Position numbers and translations under genes: made by a program. A DNA stretch of 64,000 bases from Sphaerochaeta globosa str. Buddy. Its GTDB lineage: Bacteria; Spirochaetota; Spirochaetia; Sphaerochaetales; Sphaerochaetaceae. Location of the stretch: the NCBI RefSeq assembly GCF_000190435.1, contig NC_015152.1:3230458-3294457 (forward strand), read 5' to 3'. Shown in pieces: positions 24,420 through 33,161 of this stretch; within the stretch, counting starts at the first letter, position 1; each line of letters starts with the position of its first letter. The notes beneath the pieces were generated by a model. The model worked only from the letters and a program-made list of their open reading frames with translations. It was not told where the DNA came from and searched no databases.

Positions 24420-27400
24420 TCAGGGCGCTGTGGTTCTGACTTTGGTGGGTGCCATGCCCTTGATTTTCCTGAACACCCTGCAAAAGTAGGCTTGGTCCTG
24501 AAAACCCGTCTGGCTTGCCACCTCGTTGATGGTAAGAGTGCTTTGCTTGAGCAGATTGGTCGCCAAGTGGATGCGATGGCGGTTCAGGTAATCCCACGGC
24601 GAAAGGCCAATTTCCTTGCGGAAGATTCGGGTAAGGTAGTCCTCACTGACATTGACAGCCTCAGCTAGCTGCCAGCGGGAAATGGGAGTTGTTGCATGCT
24701 CACCAAGGTAGACGATGGCACGCTTTACCAAAGCTCCGGTCAGAGGAGGCAAAATCTCCTGATGGGTAAGCAGAAGGACAATGCGGGCGAGAAATTCACT
24801 GCTTTCCACCACACAGCGATGGGCTATGATCAGGCGGGGGATAAGACTCAGCTGCTCGGCTTCCTCATGCTTCCAATGCTCCCGCACGATGACAATCGGA
24901 GCCACAGAAAGCCTTCGAAGCTGCTCATACAGTACCGGGTCGAAGATATCGCTGAACAATAGACGTACCTTGTTGTTTGCATATACACCCTCGATTTCCT
25001 GCTTCGAGCACAAGACCACATTGTCCATCATGCCCAACTGTCCGGCCAACGAATGGCCCAATGCTCCCATCAGCACCAGAACACCGTCCTCTTGGTTGCC
25101 CAATTTGCTTGAGGCCAGCGATGAGGAAAGGCTTTCATATCCCTGGGGGGCGTGAAAGCAGACCATCGGAGTTTTGGAAAGCCTTGGATGATGCGCCAAA
25201 AGGTAGAGTGCCAGCTGCAACTCAGCAGAACTGCGCTGTCCATCCCAGCCAAGAATGCAACCCTCAAGCTGTGAAAGGTTCTGCTTGTTCAACAATGAGG
25301 AATGCATCAGCCTGACTTGGCTGAAAGCTGAGAACAAGGAAGGGACTTCACTCTCCGACTCACCACCGATGTACATGAGATCCGAGGAGGAAGATGCAAT
25401 GCTGTCTCCTCCCAAACTTGGCCAACCAAGACGGAACATGATTTGGTTGTCCTTCAGGGATACCAACCCCCCACTCATGAGGATTATGCGTTGTGCAAGC
25501 GAAAGTGAGGGATCCTGATTACCCAGCGAGGCTTTCCATGCAAGATGGGAGCTGATGAAGGAGAACTGAAGGCCCTGGCTTTGCAGTTCAGCCCTGATGG
25601 TAACCTGTCCCCCTTGTTTTTGGATATACTGCAGAACTATCTCAAACGCTTGGGTAATCTTGGCCCGATCCCCCAGGAGGACAGGAAGCTCGACCTCCCC
25701 TTCATAACTAAACGCATGAGAGGCTTTCAGCGAGGAAAGCAAGGAAGAGGGACTGAAAATGGTGCGTTCCAACTCAAAAGCCCCGGTATAGGAGAGTGTG
25801 AGATCCAGCAGATGGGTGGCAGTACGAAGCTGCTCCCCAACCTGCTCCTTCAACGTTTCATCTTTGTCCTGCATCAAGGACAGAATGGACTCCAGGGGGT
25901 TGCGCAGTCCTTCACTGATGTTGGCAAAGAACTCAGTACGGGCGCGCTGAGCGCGTTCGGCTTCCTCACGTGCCTTGTTGGCCGCATCCAGCAGGAAAGT
26001 CCCCTTGACTGCCGAGCTCAAGGCGGTTCTGAGCTCTTCCATGACACTGCCGCTGAACAACGTAGTACGTACCACCAAGTATCCAAGTGGTTGGTTATCC
26101 ATAAACAGTGGCTCTATCACATACACACCCTCGGTGATATTGCTCTGGATGCTTGGAGGAAGCAGCATATGCTTGGCAAACGTCTGCTGTCCTTCCAAAT
26201 GGACTTGCCCGTCGTAGCCTCCGATAAAAGTGCTGTTCTCGTCGTCCTCATAGAGCACCAAATACCCGGCTTCCAAGCCAAGACTACGAACATGGGTTGC
26301 CAACAAAGAAGGAATTGAGGAGAGGTTGCGTACCCCCAAAAGGTCGCACTTCAATGCATCAAGACTCTTGGCTTGAACAGATAAGGCATAGGCATGTTGG
26401 TGTGCGACCAAGTCGCGTTGACGTAAAAAAAGGTCTCGTAGCGAATTGGCCCTATGTTGCTTGAAAGCCTCTGAGGCGAAGAAGGTAGTGTACCAATGCA
26501 ACGCTTCTGAAAGGAGGTTTGGATCCCCTCCACGATCAAGAAACCGATACACCAAGTCCTCTGCCAAAGACAGATAGGACAACTCGTCGGCAGAATCGGC
26601 TTCGTCAAGCAGTCTTTGTATGCTGGGAATCGTCGCATCGTGGACTCTGAAACTTTGTACCAGCCAAGCTAAAAATAGGGACGGTGTTCCCACACTTTGT
26701 TTTGCTTGTTCAGTACTGCCCAATGAGTGGGTGCACCCACACGATTGCCGAATGACCGGATGTGAAGGTAGCAGGATATCGAAGCTTGGGGCAGTATCAT
26801 CCTCAAGCAGGTTGGAAAGCAGTTCGAAGGACATATGGGCAAGCTCGGTGACCGGCATGCGTGCGGTGGTGCAAGGAACCCTGAGCAGGTGGCTTTCACT
26901 GCTATCGTTGTAGCCAACGATGCGGACATCGCCGGGTATGGAATACCCCAACGCTTCCAGCTGCTTTCCGGCGGCGAACATCATCATATCGCTCGAGCAG
27001 GCCAGCGTATCAAAATCCTTGCCTGGTATGAGACCCCGCTCTTCAACCAACTGGGAAAGGGCAGCGGCTCCCTCGGTCCAAGGATGCGGGTCGGAGGCCA
27101 ATCGCGGATCGAAAACCAAGCCTGTCTGATCAAGCGCATCGTAATATGCGCGATAGCGGTCCTGCGCCGAATAATGGTTCTGGGGCCCTCTGATAAAGGC
27201 AATTCTACGGCTCTTGTGTTTGGTGATGCAGTGCAGAATGACGCTCTGCACTCCAGCATAAGCATCGAAGGAAACCGCAGGATAGCCCTTTCGCTTCATA
27301 CCGATGGAGACACAAGGAAGCGTTCCAAGGGTTGCCAGAAAGGTCTGCACTTCCTCAACCCGCACAGAACCGCCAAGCGCGGAAGCCCAGGTTAGGACTC

Positions 27401-27614
27401 CTTGTACATTGTCGGCGTTGACCAGCGGGTAGATGGCATTGCGAAGATACTCTTGGTTCTCCTCACACTCAAGCCTTCCCCCGGGAAACACAAACAGGGA
27501 CGCATGAGAAGTCTTGGCAAGCCTTGCTATCTCACTCCAGAGCTCGTTCGAGGCTCCGGTATGAATGGAAGCGAGTAACAAGGCAATTTTCTTGTGTCGG
27601 GATTCGGGCACCAT
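24420..27614 (-). CDS. Hybrid AraC-family regulator: LacI-type sensor, degenerate kinase core, AraC helix-turn-helix
   Basis: A 1064-residue one-protein regulator. Residues 1-290 form a LacI/periplasmic-binding-like domain (IALLLASIHTGASNELWSEI, FIRGPQNHYSAQDRYRAY, VRIVGYNDSSES). A linker and GAF-like part follow to about 540, then a coiled coil leading into FFANISEGLRNPLESIL. That is the HisKA dimerisation motif with the phospho-acceptor His missing (SEGLRNPL instead of SHELRTPL). An HATPase-like segment lacks the N-box Asn and clear G boxes. Receiver-like segments follow. A C-terminal AraC domain spans about 965-1060 (WQLAEAVNVSEDYLTRIFRKE, INEVASQTGFQDQAYFCRVFR). Divergent from the uronate operon with 84 bp between, so a role in its control is likely but unproven. 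Confidence 0.82.
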   Translation of the reverse strand: MVPESRHKKIALLLASIHTGASNELWSEIARLAKTSHASLFVFPGGRLECEENQEYLRNAIYPLVNADNVQGVLTWASALGGSVRVEEVQTFLATLGTLPCVSIGMKRKGYPAVSFDAYAGVQSVILHCITKHKSRRIAFIRGPQNHYSAQDRYRAYYDALDQTGLVFDPRLASDPHPWTEGAAALSQLVEERGLIPGKDFDTLACSSDMMMFAAGKQLEALGYSIPGDVRIVGYNDSSESHLLRVPCTTARMPVTELAHMSFELLSNLLEDDTAPSFDILLPSHPVIRQSCGCTHSLGSTEQAKQSVGTPSLFLAWLVQSFRVHDATIPSIQRLLDEADSADELSYLSLAEDLVYRFLDRGGDPNLLSEALHWYTTFFASEAFKQHRANSLRDLFLRQRDLVAHQHAYALSVQAKSLDALKCDLLGVRNLSSIPSLLATHVRSLGLEAGYLVLYEDDENSTFIGGYDGQVHLEGQQTFAKHMLLPPSIQSNITEGVYVIEPLFMDNQPLGYLVVRTTLFSGSVMEELRTALSSAVKGTFLLDAANKAREEAERAQRARTEFFANISEGLRNPLESILSLMQDKDETLKEQVGEQLRTATHLLDLTLSYTGAFELERTIFSPSSLLSSLKASHAFSYEGEVELPVLLGDRAKITQAFEIVLQYIQKQGGQVTIRAELQSQGLQFSFISSHLAWKASLGNQDPSLSLAQRIILMSGGLVSLKDNQIMFRLGWPSLGGDSIASSSSDLMYIGGESESEVPSLFSAFSQVRLMHSSLLNKQNLSQLEGCILGWDGQRSSAELQLALYLLAHHPRLSKTPMVCFHAPQGYESLSSSLASSKLGNQEDGVLVLMGALGHSLAGQLGMMDNVVLCSKQEIEGVYANNKVRLLFSDIFDPVLYEQLRRLSVAPIVIVREHWKHEEAEQLSLIPRLIIAHRCVVESSEFLARIVLLLTHQEILPPLTGALVKRAIVYLGEHATTPISRWQLAEAVNVSEDYLTRIFRKEIGLSPWDYLNRHRIHLATNLLKQSTLTINEVASQTGFQDQAYFCRVFRKIKGMAPTKVRTTAP

Positions 27615-27691: not shown

Positions 27692-27706
27692 TGGAACGAT
27701 GTTTCA
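27692..27706 (+). promoter_or_regulatory. KdgR-like operator over the uxa transcription start
   Basis: TGGAAC-GAT-GTTTCA: a 15-bp dyad with one mismatch to the perfect TGAAAC-N3-GTTTCA site at eda/kdgK. It resembles the IclR-family KdgR consensus (GAAACA/TGTTTC core). Placement over +1 predicts repression. Confidence 0.55.
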
Positions 27707-28700
27707 ATTTCAACCCATCGAGGCAGCGCTCAGGCGCATGAACTTTCATCTGGACCGGATTATGCCGCTGCTTACCCCCAGTGGGGTTGTACTGGGCCTT
27801 CTGCTTGGTTCATGGGTTGCATGGATGAAACCTTCGGTTACCATCCTCTTTGCAGTGATTACCTTCATCGGAGGATTGGGCATCAATTCAAACGATTTCT
27901 TCAAGGTAGTCAAAAAGCCTAAAGCCATTTTGGTGTTCGTCATCGGGGCAAACCTTGTCATGCCCCTGCTTACCTACGCAGTAGCCTCTGTAGTGTTCAA
28001 GGACCAACAGGAGATTGCAACCGGTCTGATTTTGCTTATGTCCATACCCACTGCAATAACCGGCTACATCTGGAGCGGTATCTATAAAGGAAACGGAGCC
28101 CTTTCCCTAACACTGATTCTGGTCTCTACCCTGCTTGCACCCATTCTCACCCCCTACACGGTGAGCCTGCTTGCCAACACTTCGGTTCGTATCGATACTG
28201 CGGGCATGATGGCCTCGCTTGTTCTGATGGTGGTTATCCCCTCGGTAGCAGGCATCCTGATCAACAATCTTACCAAGGGCAAGGTGAACGACCATATCAC
28301 CCCCTGCCTCAAGCCTTTTTCAAAAATCGGCCTCTTTATCATTATTATTATCAATACAGCACAAGTTTCGGATCGTCTTTTGGCCAATGCCTCATGGGCT
28401 TACTTGCCCATCGCCCTGACCTGCGCCTTTCTGGCTGTCATCGGCTATCCGATTTCCCATACCCTTGGCAGAATTGCCGGCCTTGCAGAGGAAGAGAGCA
28501 AAAGCATTACCTTCGCATCATCGCTGCGCAACATCAGTGCAGCCTTGGTACTGGCAATCGCCTACTTCCCCGCCGAGACCGCCCTCCCTGTTATCTTTGG
28601 AATCGTATTTCAGCAGAGTACGTGTGCCGTCATGGCCCATGTTCTGTATGGTAGAAAAAAAAAGTACGTAACACATCAACACAGCAAAGGAGTAAATACC
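27699..28700 (+). CDS. BASS-family (bile acid:sodium symporter-like) transporter, fused in frame to UxaB
   Basis: About 320 residues with nine to ten hydrophobic segments: FAVITFIGGLGINSNDFF, then LMSIPTAITGYIWSG and FASSLRNISAALVLAIAYFP are BASS/SBF landmarks. Position at the head of the uronate operon suggests a sugar-acid anion importer. The reading frame does not stop: it continues through a nine-A run (28655-28663) and a short linker into uxaB, giving an 829-residue product as sequenced. If one A were absent, the frame would end at TAA 28669-28671, right after the last membrane segment. ATG 27699 would be leaderless; ATG 27738 is an alternative start. Confidence 0.75.
28655..28663 (+). 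repeat. A9 homopolymer at the transporter-uxaB junction
   Basis: Nine consecutive A between GGTAG and GTACGTAA. Loss of one A (or a slip on the RNA) ends the transporter at TAA 28669-28671; nine A fuses the two proteins. See findings. Confidence 0.9.
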
Positions 28701-30188
28701 ATGCAACCAATCACCAGTGTACACCAGAGTGTAGCAAGAAAAGAAAAGGTTCTTCAGTTCGGTGAGGGAAACTTCCTTCGTGCGTTCGTTGATTGGATGA
28801 TCGACATCCTCAACGAGAAAACCGACTTCAACGGAAACGTAGTGCTCGTCCAGCCCTTGGATCGAGGCTTGCGTGATATGATCAATGCTCAGAATGGTTT
28901 GTATACCACAGTCCTCAGGGGCGTACAGAACAAGAAGACCGTTGAGGAGTATCGGACCATAAACAGCGTCAGCCGCTGTCTCAACCCGTTCATGGCCGAC
29001 GATTACCAGGAATATATGAAGCTTGCCTCCAGCGAAGACCTTCGCTTCATCGTATCCAACACCACCGAGGCCGGCATCAGCTACCACAGCGGGGACACGT
29101 TGGCCGACCAGCCGCCGCTTTCCTTCCCCGCCAAAGTCTGCGCGTTCCTCTATAAGCGCTACCAAGCCTTCGAAGGAGCTTTGGACAAGGGCCTGATCGT
29201 CATTCCCTGTGAGCTCATCGACAAGAACGGGGACAACCTGAAGAACATCGTCAAGCAGTATGCAACCGAGTGGAAGCTCGAAGAAGGCTTCACCACTTGG
29301 CTCGACGAAGCTTGTGATTTCTGCAACTCCCTGGTCGACCGCATCGTTCCCGGCTATCCCAGAGCCGAAGCCGAGGCAATTTGCACCAAACTCGGTTACC
29401 AGGACAACCTCCTCGATTCAGCAGAAATCTTCCACCTGTGGGTCATTGAATGTCATAAGAATTTCCACGAGGATGAGCTGCCGTTCAACAAAGCAGGCCT
29501 GAATGTGGTATGGACCGACGATATGAGCTTCTACCGCACCCGCAAGGTCCGCATTCTCAATGGTGCGCATACCATGAGCGTACTTGCAGCCTATCAGGCA
29601 GGTCATGAGACCGTTCAGGATTGCATTGCCGACAAGGCCCTTCTCTACCCGTTCATGTACAAGGGAATCTTTGAGGAGATCATCCCCTCGATGGATGGTT
29701 CGAAAGAGGAACTCGAGGCGTATGCAGCAGATGTGTTGGAGCGCTTTGAGAATCCGTACAATCCCCATCAGCTGCTCTCCATTTCACTGAACTCCGTTTC
29801 CAAGTTCAAGACCAGAAACCTCCCTTCCTTGCTGGGATACTTCACCAAGCAAGGCAAGCTGCCCAAGCGTTTGGTCTTTTCTCTCTCTGCTCTGATCAGT
29901 TTCTACGAAGGGACCGATTATGAAGGTTCATCTCTGAAGGGAACCAGGGCATCAGAAACCTACTTGATCCAGGACAGTCCTGAAATCCTTGCCGCCTTTG
30001 CTGCTCTCTATGCTGAGAAAGGAAATCCGAAGGCCAAGTCCCAGCGTCTTGCAAAGGCTGTGCTGTCCAATACCGCTTGGTGGTCACAAGATCTGACCAA
30101 GGTCGAAGGGCTTGAGAAAGCCGTGGCCGCAAACCTAGAGGCCATTTGGACTGTCGGCATGAAGCAGGCCGTCGCTTCTCTCGTATAA
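28701..30188 (+). CDS. uxaB: Tagaturonate reductase (altronate oxidoreductase)
   Basis: A 495-residue member of the long-chain mannitol dehydrogenase family that reduces tagaturonate to altronate with NADH. The N-terminal Rossmann segment is VLQFGEGNFLRAFVDW. The catalytic region contains KVRILNGAHTMSVL (Lys-x5-Asn-x2-His type) and NPYNPHQLLSISLNSVSKFKTR. It has its own SD (AAAGGAG, 8 nt) before ATG 28701, which argues for an independent start even though it is in frame with the upstream transporter. It precedes uxaA by 16 bp. Confidence 0.93.
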   Translation: MQPITSVHQSVARKEKVLQFGEGNFLRAFVDWMIDILNEKTDFNGNVVLVQPLDRGLRDMINAQNGLYTTVLRGVQNKKTVEEYRTINSVSRCLNPFMADDYQEYMKLASSEDLRFIVSNTTEAGISYHSGDTLADQPPLSFPAKVCAFLYKRYQAFEGALDKGLIVIPCELIDKNGDNLKNIVKQYATEWKLEEGFTTWLDEACDFCNSLVDRIVPGYPRAEAEAICTKLGYQDNLLDSAEIFHLWVIECHKNFHEDELPFNKAGLNVVWTDDMSFYRTRKVRILNGAHTMSVLAAYQAGHETVQDCIADKALLYPFMYKGIFEEIIPSMDGSKEELEAYAADVLERFENPYNPHQLLSISLNSVSKFKTRNLPSLLGYFTKQGKLPKRLVFSLSALISFYEGTDYEGSSLKGTRASETYLIQDSPEILAAFAALYAEKGNPKAKSQRLAKAVLSNTAWWSQDLTKVEGLEKAVAANLEAIWTVGMKQAVASLV

Positions 30189-30204: not shown

Positions 30205-31731
30205 ATGCAGACCTACACCGTCTTGAAGGTACATCCCGAAGACTCGGTTGCAGTCGCCATCCGTCCCCTGTCACAAGGGGATGTGGTGGAGGTTGCAGGC
30301 CTCCAGATTACCTTGGCAACTGATATTCCCCCTGGACATAAATTCGCACTCAAAAACCTTGCAAAAGGGGAGAAGGTTATGAAGTATGGTGCTCCAATCG
30401 GCTATGCCATAACGGATATAGCCAGCGGCGAGCATGTTCATGCCACCAATATCAAGACCTTGCTTTCCGAGAATGCCACCTATGTGTACGACCGCACGCT
30501 GTCAGCGCAATTCGCCCAGAAAGAAGCAGAGCGCAAGAAGGTATGGGAAAACAAGGTTCCTACCATCAAGGCCTACCGAAGAAGCAACGGGGCCATCGGC
30601 ATCCGTAACGAACTTTGGATTGTCCCCACCGTAGGGTGTGTCAACAAGATTGCTGAAAATTTGGTAGCCTGGGCACAGGAAAACCTAAAGAAAGCACCAT
30701 TCTACGATGGCATCCATGTCTGGTCTCACCCGTACGGCTGCTCCCAACTGGGAGACGACCATGAGGCGACGCGTACCATTCTTTCAGACCTTGTCCACCA
30801 CCCTAATGCAGGCGGTGTGTTGGTCCTCTCTCTCGGTTGTGAGAACAACACCCCGGCTTCTTTCCGAGCTCTTGTTGGGAACGTTGACGAAAATCGGGTG
30901 AAGTTTCTCACCACCCAGGAAGTCAGCGACGAGCTCGCTGAGAGTAAGCGCTTGCTCACCGAGCTCTATGAAACCATGAAGGGCGATGTTCGAGAGGATG
31001 TCGGTATGGACAGTCTCATCGTAGGTTTCAAGTGCGGCGGAAGCGACGGACTGAGCGGTATCACCGCCAATCCTTTGGTCGGCCGTTTTTGCGATGAGTT
31101 GACTGCAATGGGTGGGACGGGGATCCTGACCGAGGTTCCCGAAATGTTCGGTGCCGAGCAGCTTTTGATGAACCGGGCGGTGGATGAACAGGTGTACAAC
31201 CAGACAGTCTCCTTGATCAACGACTTCAAGCAGTACTTTGTCAAACACAACCAGGTGGTCTATGAGAATCCCTCCCCGGGAAACAAGGCCGGCGGCATTT
31301 CAACGCTTGAGGACAAGAGTCTTGGCTGCATCCAGAAAGGCGGTCAGGCTATGATCACCGATGTCCTGGGCTATGGTGATCGGATTAAGAAGCGGGGGCT
31401 TAATCTGCTTAACGGTCCGGGCAATGACATTGTCTCCACCACAGCACTTACGGCCTGCGGAGCACATATCATTCTGTTCACCACCGGCAGGGGAACCCCT
31501 CTTGGAGCTCCGGTGCCGACTATCAAGATTTCCTCGAACAGCGAGCTTGCAGAGAAAAAGGCCAATTGGATCGACTTCGACGCCGGGCGGCTTCTCAAGG
31601 AACCTGAAACCAGTGTGCTTTCAGATTTTCTTTCCCTTATCCAAAGCGTTGCAAGCGGAGAATCGCTGGCAAAGAATGAAGAGAACGGATACGCAGAAAT
31701 TTCGCTGTTCAAGGACGGGGTCATCCTCTGA
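30205..31731 (+). CDS. uxaA: Altronate dehydratase
   Basis: A 508-residue UxaA. It dehydrates altronate to 2-keto-3-deoxygluconate. The N-terminal SAF-type domain (about 1-95) is followed by the catalytic GarD/UxaA region with SHPYGCSQLGDDHEAT, SLGCENNTPA, GFKCGGSDGLSGITANP and TACGAHIILFTTGRGTPLG. The cysteines are expected to bind the iron cofactor. AAGGAG precedes ATG 30205. Cytoplasmic, second enzyme of the uxaB-uxaA-uxaC run. Confidence 0.95.
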   Translation: MQTYTVLKVHPEDSVAVAIRPLSQGDVVEVAGLQITLATDIPPGHKFALKNLAKGEKVMKYGAPIGYAITDIASGEHVHATNIKTLLSENATYVYDRTLSAQFAQKEAERKKVWENKVPTIKAYRRSNGAIGIRNELWIVPTVGCVNKIAENLVAWAQENLKKAPFYDGIHVWSHPYGCSQLGDDHEATRTILSDLVHHPNAGGVLVLSLGCENNTPASFRALVGNVDENRVKFLTTQEVSDELAESKRLLTELYETMKGDVREDVGMDSLIVGFKCGGSDGLSGITANPLVGRFCDELTAMGGTGILTEVPEMFGAEQLLMNRAVDEQVYNQTVSLINDFKQYFVKHNQVVYENPSPGNKAGGISTLEDKSLGCIQKGGQAMITDVLGYGDRIKKRGLNLLNGPGNDIVSTTALTACGAHIILFTTGRGTPLGAPVPTIKISSNSELAEKKANWIDFDAGRLLKEPETSVLSDFLSLIQSVASGESLAKNEENGYAEISLFKDGVIL

Positions 31732-31757: not shown

Positions 31758-33161
31758 ATGAAAAAGTTTATGGATGAACATTTTTTACTGCAGACCAAGA
31801 CCGCTCAGGCTCTCTACCATGACTATGCCAAGGATGAGATGATTTTTGACTATCACTGTCACCTCAATCCGAGCGAAATCGCCAACAATAAGAAGTTTAC
31901 CACCATCACCGATGCCTGGCTTGGCGGTGACCACTACAAGTGGAGAGCCATGCGTGCCAATGGGATTCCCGAAGAGCTGGTTACCGGCAAAAACACCGAT
32001 CCCTTCGACAAGTTCATGGCTTGGGCTTCCACCATGGAAAACGCCTTGGGCAATCCGCTGTACCACTGGACCCATCTGGAGCTTCAGCGGTACTTCGGCA
32101 TCCACGAGGTATTGAACACCAAGAACGCAAAGGCCATATTCGAAGAGGCCAATCGCCAATTCAAGGAAAATGAGAACCTTTCGGTCAAGGGTATCATGAA
32201 GCAGTTCAAGGTCTATGCAGTGGGAACCACCGACGATCCTGCCGACGACCTTGCCTATCATGCTCAGATTGCCAAGCAATCCGACTTCCCTGCGAAGGTA
32301 ATTCCCTCCTACCGTCCTGACAAGGCCCTGAACATTGAGAAGGAGACTTTTCTCTCCTATATCGACAGCCTGGCCAAGGCTTCGGGCAAGAAAATTGAGA
32401 AGGCAAGCGATGTTGTCGATGCCCTTATCGACCGCCTCGACTTCTTTGTGAGCATGGGCTGCAAGGCTTCCGACCATGCCTTGGTAACCGCTCCCGCCAT
32501 CTTCAAGAGCGAAAGCGATGTGAATGCAATCTTTGCCAAGAAATTGGCGGGTGCAACGCTTTCTTATGATGAAGTGGAGGCTTATAAGACCTTTGTGCTC
32601 ACACATCTTGCCCGTGCCTATGCAAAGCGGGACATCGCAATGCAATTGCACTTTGCGGCCATCCGTGACAACAATGGGCTGATGTTCAATACCCTTGGAC
32701 CTGACACCGGCTATGATGCTTCCCACGATAAGGAACTTGCCACCTCTCTTTCAGCTTTTCTGAATAATCTCTCGGCAACCGGTGAGGTTCCCAAGACAAT
32801 CCTCTACTCGCTCAATCCCAAGGATTATTATACGCTGGCAACCTTGATGGGCTGTTATCAGGATGGTATCCCGGGTAAAATGCAGCTCGGTTCCGCTTGG
32901 TGGTTCGCCGATCATAAGGATGGTATGGAAGAGCAGATGAGACTTCTCGGAAATGTCGGATTGCTCCCTCGTTTCATCGGCATGCTTACCGACAGCCGAT
33001 CCTTCCTCTCCTACTCACGACACGAGTACTTCAGAAGAATCCTTTGCAACATCTTCGGCACCTGGGCCGAGGAAGGCGAGGTCCCCTACGACCTGCCGAT
33101 GCTTGGCGATGTGGTGAAGAATATTTCCTTCGGGAATGCAAAAGCCTATTTCGAGGGGTAA
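31758..33161 (+). CDS. uxaC: Glucuronate/galacturonate isomerase
   Basis: A 467-residue amidohydrolase-fold isomerase. It converts galacturonate to tagaturonate (and glucuronate to fructuronate). Metal site DYHCHLNP near residue 33; further signatures are AVGTTDDPADDLAYH, QLHFAAIRDNNG, LGSAWWFADHKDGMEEQ and LTDSRSFLSYSRHEYFRRIL. SD GGAG precedes ATG 31758. It supplies the first step of the pathway completed by UxaB, UxaA, KdgK and Eda in this window. Confidence 0.96.
   Translation: MKKFMDEHFLLQTKTAQALYHDYAKDEMIFDYHCHLNPSEIANNKKFTTITDAWLGGDHYKWRAMRANGIPEELVTGKNTDPFDKFMAWASTMENALGNPLYHWTHLELQRYFGIHEVLNTKNAKAIFEEANRQFKENENLSVKGIMKQFKVYAVGTTDDPADDLAYHAQIAKQSDFPAKVIPSYRPDKALNIEKETFLSYIDSLAKASGKKIEKASDVVDALIDRLDFFVSMGCKASDHALVTAPAIFKSESDVNAIFAKKLAGATLSYDEVEAYKTFVLTHLARAYAKRDIAMQLHFAAIRDNNGLMFNTLGPDTGYDASHDKELATSLSAFLNNLSATGEVPKTILYSLNPKDYYTLATLMGCYQDGIPGKMQLGSAWWFADHKDGMEEQMRLLGNVGLLPRFIGMLTDSRSFLSYSRHEYFRRILCNIFGTWAEEGEVPYDLPMLGDVVKNISFGNAKAYFEG

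Follow-up and report, generated by a model that had tools for sequence, protein, structure and literature searches.

In the genome of Sphaerochaeta globosa str. Buddy, the gene for a BASS-type transporter runs without a stop codon into uxaB, the gene for tagaturonate reductase, which raises the question of whether the two are encoded as one fusion protein, whether the run of nine A at their junction acts as a switch between fused and separate products, or whether the fusion reflects only a one-base change in a homopolymer. These possibilities were raised by a sequence-only reading of the locus, which named phase variation, transcriptional slippage, a real transporter-enzyme fusion and sequencing error as candidate causes. 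Here, the window denotes the whole 64,000-nucleotide stretch of DNA that was analysed. The features of the junction are as follows.

27699..30188, + strand: apparent fused ORF of 829 codons, an open frame in the assembly
27699..28671, + strand: BASS/SBF-family transporter gene, with limits inferred from relatives (Pfam PF01758, SBF, 5.9e-26)
28655..28663, + strand: A9 homopolymer, the probable site of a one-base expansion and the longest A/T run of the window (orthologous runs, 2–8 A)
28669..28671, + strand: TAA, the transporter stop at codon 324 given A8, aligned in DNA with the TAA of A8 relatives
28672..28700, + strand: spacer of 29 nt with the Shine-Dalgarno (SD) sequence AAAGGAG (about 28689–28695)
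28701..30188, + strand: uxaB, tagaturonate reductase, with its own ATG and SD (NCBIfam NF002969; Pfam PF01232, PF08125)

As read from the assembly, the 829-codon frame was uninterrupted from the ATG at 27699 to the stop ending at 30188 on the + strand, and the nine A residues occupied exactly 28655–28663, both as the sequence-only reading had described. The TAA at 28669–28671 sits one frame off from the fused ORF: the distance from the transporter ATG to the end of this TAA is 973 nt (3 × 324 + 1), and this frame count bore out the claim that one A fewer would end the transporter there. In the A8 version of the window sequence, the transporter ends in YGRKKST, followed by TAA at codon 324. When other run lengths were simulated, A6, A9 and A12 yielded the fusion, A8 and A11 yielded the transporter alone (323/324 aa), and A7 and A10 yielded a transporter of 354/355 aa whose tail is unrelated. 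The fusion junction reads KKKYVTHQHSKGVNTMQ, and the N-terminus of UxaB from its own ATG begins MQPITSVHQSVAR; AAAGGAG precedes the ATG at 28701, in agreement with the proposal that uxaB keeps its own start signals. The linker, previously given as 15 codons, reaches that length by including the run's three Lys codons, whereas 12 codons separate the end of the run from the uxaB ATG.

The identities assigned to the two halves also held, with both family models matched above their cutoffs (PF01758: 91.8 bits vs. a gathering score of 24.3; NF002969: 646.3 bits vs. a curated cutoff of 359). The transporter also matched TIGR00841 (bass), at a score below that model's cutoff. Transporter orthologs terminate at codons 321–341, and in the window the residues RKKK directly follow the last hydrophobic helix of the transporter.

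Orthologous junctions in the family and phylum

Transporter orthologs were detected in 64 of the 139 family genomes when matches of all degrees were counted, and, apart from the locus in the window, none of the close matches among those listed had a frame long enough to include uxaB (largest, 447 aa). The comparison with orthologous loci suggested by the earlier reading spoke against a fusion: the transporter and uxaB were separate at all 26 distinct orthologous family junctions (fused, 0/26), with stop-to-start distances of −44 to +69 nt. All three relative frames of transporter and uxaB were represented: four loci were in frame, and the remaining two frames accounted for 9 and 13. The orthologous A runs were 2–8 residues long and often interrupted. 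An A8 run was present in four loci (L003, L025, L028 and L031), whose transporters all end in YGRKKIT followed by TAA as codon 324, and it is with this TAA that the out-of-frame TAA of the window aligns. The two closest relatives (about 82–85% DNA identity) had an A7 run and an interrupted run, respectively, and the genes were separate in both. The spacer measured 28, 30 and 28 nt in L020, L009 and L003, compared with 29 nt here, with the SD and ATG retained. Since spacer length differs by non-multiples of three among close relatives, this segment evolves as a non-coding spacer. Because the loci differ in the length of the run, the stop codon, the size of the spacer and the relative frame, a conserved switch was rejected; the earlier view of the sequence as poised on a switch is not supported. 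The separation of the genes in all relatives examined thus points to an ordinary one-base slip or a sequencing error rather than a designed fusion or switch.

A search of 393 genomes of the phylum with the fused protein as query returned no other BASS–UxaB fusion among the matches listed, which extended down to weak ones; together with the 26 unfused family junctions, this result speaks against the suggestion of a real fusion. Two candidates were dismissed on reading their loci. In G393, where one match extended over both halves (open frame, 869), the locus contained adjacent but separate transporter and uxaB genes, as did that of G383 (open frame, 900). A different arrangement was observed in G384 (L116, 2755–5775), where UxaB and a UxaA-like altronate dehydratase occupy one in-frame ORF of 1006 codons whose junction has no homopolymer; this ORF may be a genuine fusion, here of the two genes that come next in the operon.

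Source of the additional A

The apparent fusion is very probably a singleton A8-to-A9 expansion, that is, an indel of recent origin and near-neutral effect or an erroneous base call, as judged from the sequence comparisons. The chances that the extra A is a real indel are about even, and a sequencing error carries a substantial probability that falls short of even. Under this explanation, the homopolymer at the 3′ end of the BASS-type transporter gene would have gained one base just upstream of uxaB, either through replication slippage, whose product became fixed or was caught in the clone that was sequenced, or through a base-call error. The ancestral arrangement would have been two proteins, namely a 323-residue transporter ending in YGRKKST and UxaB translated from its own SD and ATG, and two separate proteins are most likely still the functional products. 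UxaB would be made independently whatever the number of A residues, and the transporter probably tolerates changes at its C-terminus. If A9 is real, the transporter would carry a UxaB tail, or a short end when translated from a slipped mRNA; RNA polymerase slippage would presumably generate minority A8 and A10 mRNAs with no programmed role.

The frame discordance is unique to one genome and lies at a homopolymer, the pattern expected of a singleton indel or sequencing error. Singleton frame transitions in the GeneTack survey were for the most part explained by indels or sequencing errors, with more weight on indels for transitions at the 3′ ends of genes (PMC3711429). The present case shares with such singletons a one-base indel in a poly-A run of at least seven, confinement to one genome and a position at a gene 3′ end tolerant of truncation or extension (PMC3711429), and differs from them in that the frame opens into the next gene instead of being truncated. 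For this reason the locus looks like a fusion in annotation. That it opens into uxaB at all counts against an indel or error as a modest coincidence, combining a chance of about one third for the frame with one of about one half for a stop-free linker.

The quality of the assembly, a single contig of 3,316,466 bp, also bears against this explanation, since the other A9/A10 and C8/G8 runs of the genome lie mostly within intact ORFs or intergenic regions. Two other long homopolymers compared with relatives showed no sign of breakage. Gross homopolymer error is thus not evident, and a genome-wide error of this kind was rejected; the quality of the assembly is compatible both with a correct call and with a base-call error at A9. 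No statement of the sequencing technology used for this genome was found in the literature. When the window was compared in both directions with the 85%-identical complete relative G091, about 50 conserved ORFs were frame-concordant, and the A9 run was the sole discordance in the 64 kb, a result in favour of the singleton expansion. Against the fragmentary relative G101, one more discordance appeared, in a 113-aa ORF that overlaps a larger gene on the opposite strand and is probably not a gene. Another long run was seen in L051 (1501–1510), where A10 lies at the extreme end of a histidine-kinase-like gene with the start of the next gene adjacent; the ORF with this run stops near where its relatives stop.

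The orthologous run itself varies between near-identical sequences. Over 3,963 bp, the L023 and L024 assemblies share 99.42% identity, and the only gap between them is one A in this run (A6 vs. A7), which displaces the stop from codon 322 to codon 324; the transporter and uxaB are separate and intact with either run length. This independent difference of one A in so similar a pair marks the site as an apparent indel hotspot, at which indels would affect only the last residues of the transporter C-terminus. The occurrence of the A run is within chance expectation: the window contains four A8 matches vs. 4.3 expected by chance, and the genome contains 21 distinct runs of A9 or longer vs. 32–68 expected under Markov models of the window.

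Slippage, phase variation and selected fusion

In principle, RNA polymerase could plausibly slip on A9, and nothing in the comparison points to programming. We consider it very improbable that A9 is real and fixed in the species, with slippage giving a membrane-tethered UxaB–transporter fusion along with free transporter and free UxaB. Use of slippage to provide both the fusion and the free transporter would parallel the production of tau and gamma by A9 slippage in Thermus thermophilus dnaX (PMC1088944). The locus resembles dnaX in its sense-strand run of nine A late in a coding region and in that A8 or A11 mRNA would give the shorter product, here the free transporter; in many bacteria, slippage at runs of nine A has also been documented, as has selection against it (PMC1088944). 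Unlike the case of dnaX, the run here is not conserved among orthologs, and the long product would combine the products of genes that are normally apart. No conserved post-shift coding or alternative product was found among the unfused relatives, in which the frame is inconsistently open into uxaB and the spacer varies in length and frame. For the E. coli polymerase, poly-A is less slippery than poly-T, insertion is favoured over deletion and long A runs are required (PMC6260861), and with such an insertion bias slippage would yield mainly the A10 product, 355 residues with an unrelated tail. Use of slippage in the manner of dnaX is accordingly rated very improbable.

Phase variation, in which the population would flip between A8 and A9 and toggle fused and separate products, appears less probable again. 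The one-A difference between the two 99.4% identical relatives suggests that the run may mutate readily, which would favour this explanation. Against it, no gene is off in either state: A8 and A9 alike leave both domains encoded, and uxaB retains its own SD and ATG. In addition, runs of such length occur at chance frequency or more rarely, the gene products take up and break down sugar acids and are not surface antigens, and the fused state is absent from the relatives examined.

In BASS proteins of known structure, the C-terminus is cytoplasmic. Least probable of all is a genuine selected transporter-enzyme fusion new in S. globosa, for although the complete genome shows an uninterrupted ORF and a cytoplasmic UxaB domain would be sterically possible given this cytoplasmic end and the RKKK after the last helix, the same fusion was found neither in the 26 family loci nor among the phylum-wide matches listed (G393 and G383 included), the former spacer serves as the linker, its SD and ATG still in place, and the TAA still stands at its ancestral position. 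Of the causes listed by the sequence-only reading, the comparative data thus favour a homopolymer indel or base-call error and oppose a conserved fusion or conserved switch.

The hexuronate operon

The A9 run lies in a hexuronate-catabolism operon that continues downstream of uxaB as follows.

30205..31731, + strand: UxaA-like gene (altronate dehydratase, galactarate dehydratase superfamily; TIGR03248 8.9e-81, below its cutoff)
31758..33161, + strand: uxaC, glucuronate isomerase (NF002794, 586.9 bits vs. a cutoff of 387)

The name UxaA for the first of these is suggested by its operon context. A KdgR-like regulator is also encoded downstream. Divergent from the operon, at 24420–27614 of the window (− strand), lies a gene for a 1064-aa regulator with an N-terminal LacI-type sugar-sensor region and a C-terminal AraC-type DNA-binding domain. 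The order of transporter, uxaB, UxaA-like gene and uxaC is like that of a uxa hexuronate operon; unlike in that operon, the linked transporter here is of the BASS/SBF type, a linkage recurrent in Sphaerochaetaceae relatives. The BASS/SBF transporter adjoins uxaB in most Sphaerochaetaceae loci examined (L003–L046), and stop and start codons sometimes overlap (GTGA/ATGA). This adjacency and these overlaps suggest a hexuronate-related substrate and translational coupling.

Gene callers report an 829-residue transporter-dehydrogenase fusion here that relatives contradict, and function inference based on gene fusions could go astray on this ORF. The conserved neighbourhood supports a role of the BASS transporter in hexuronate use.
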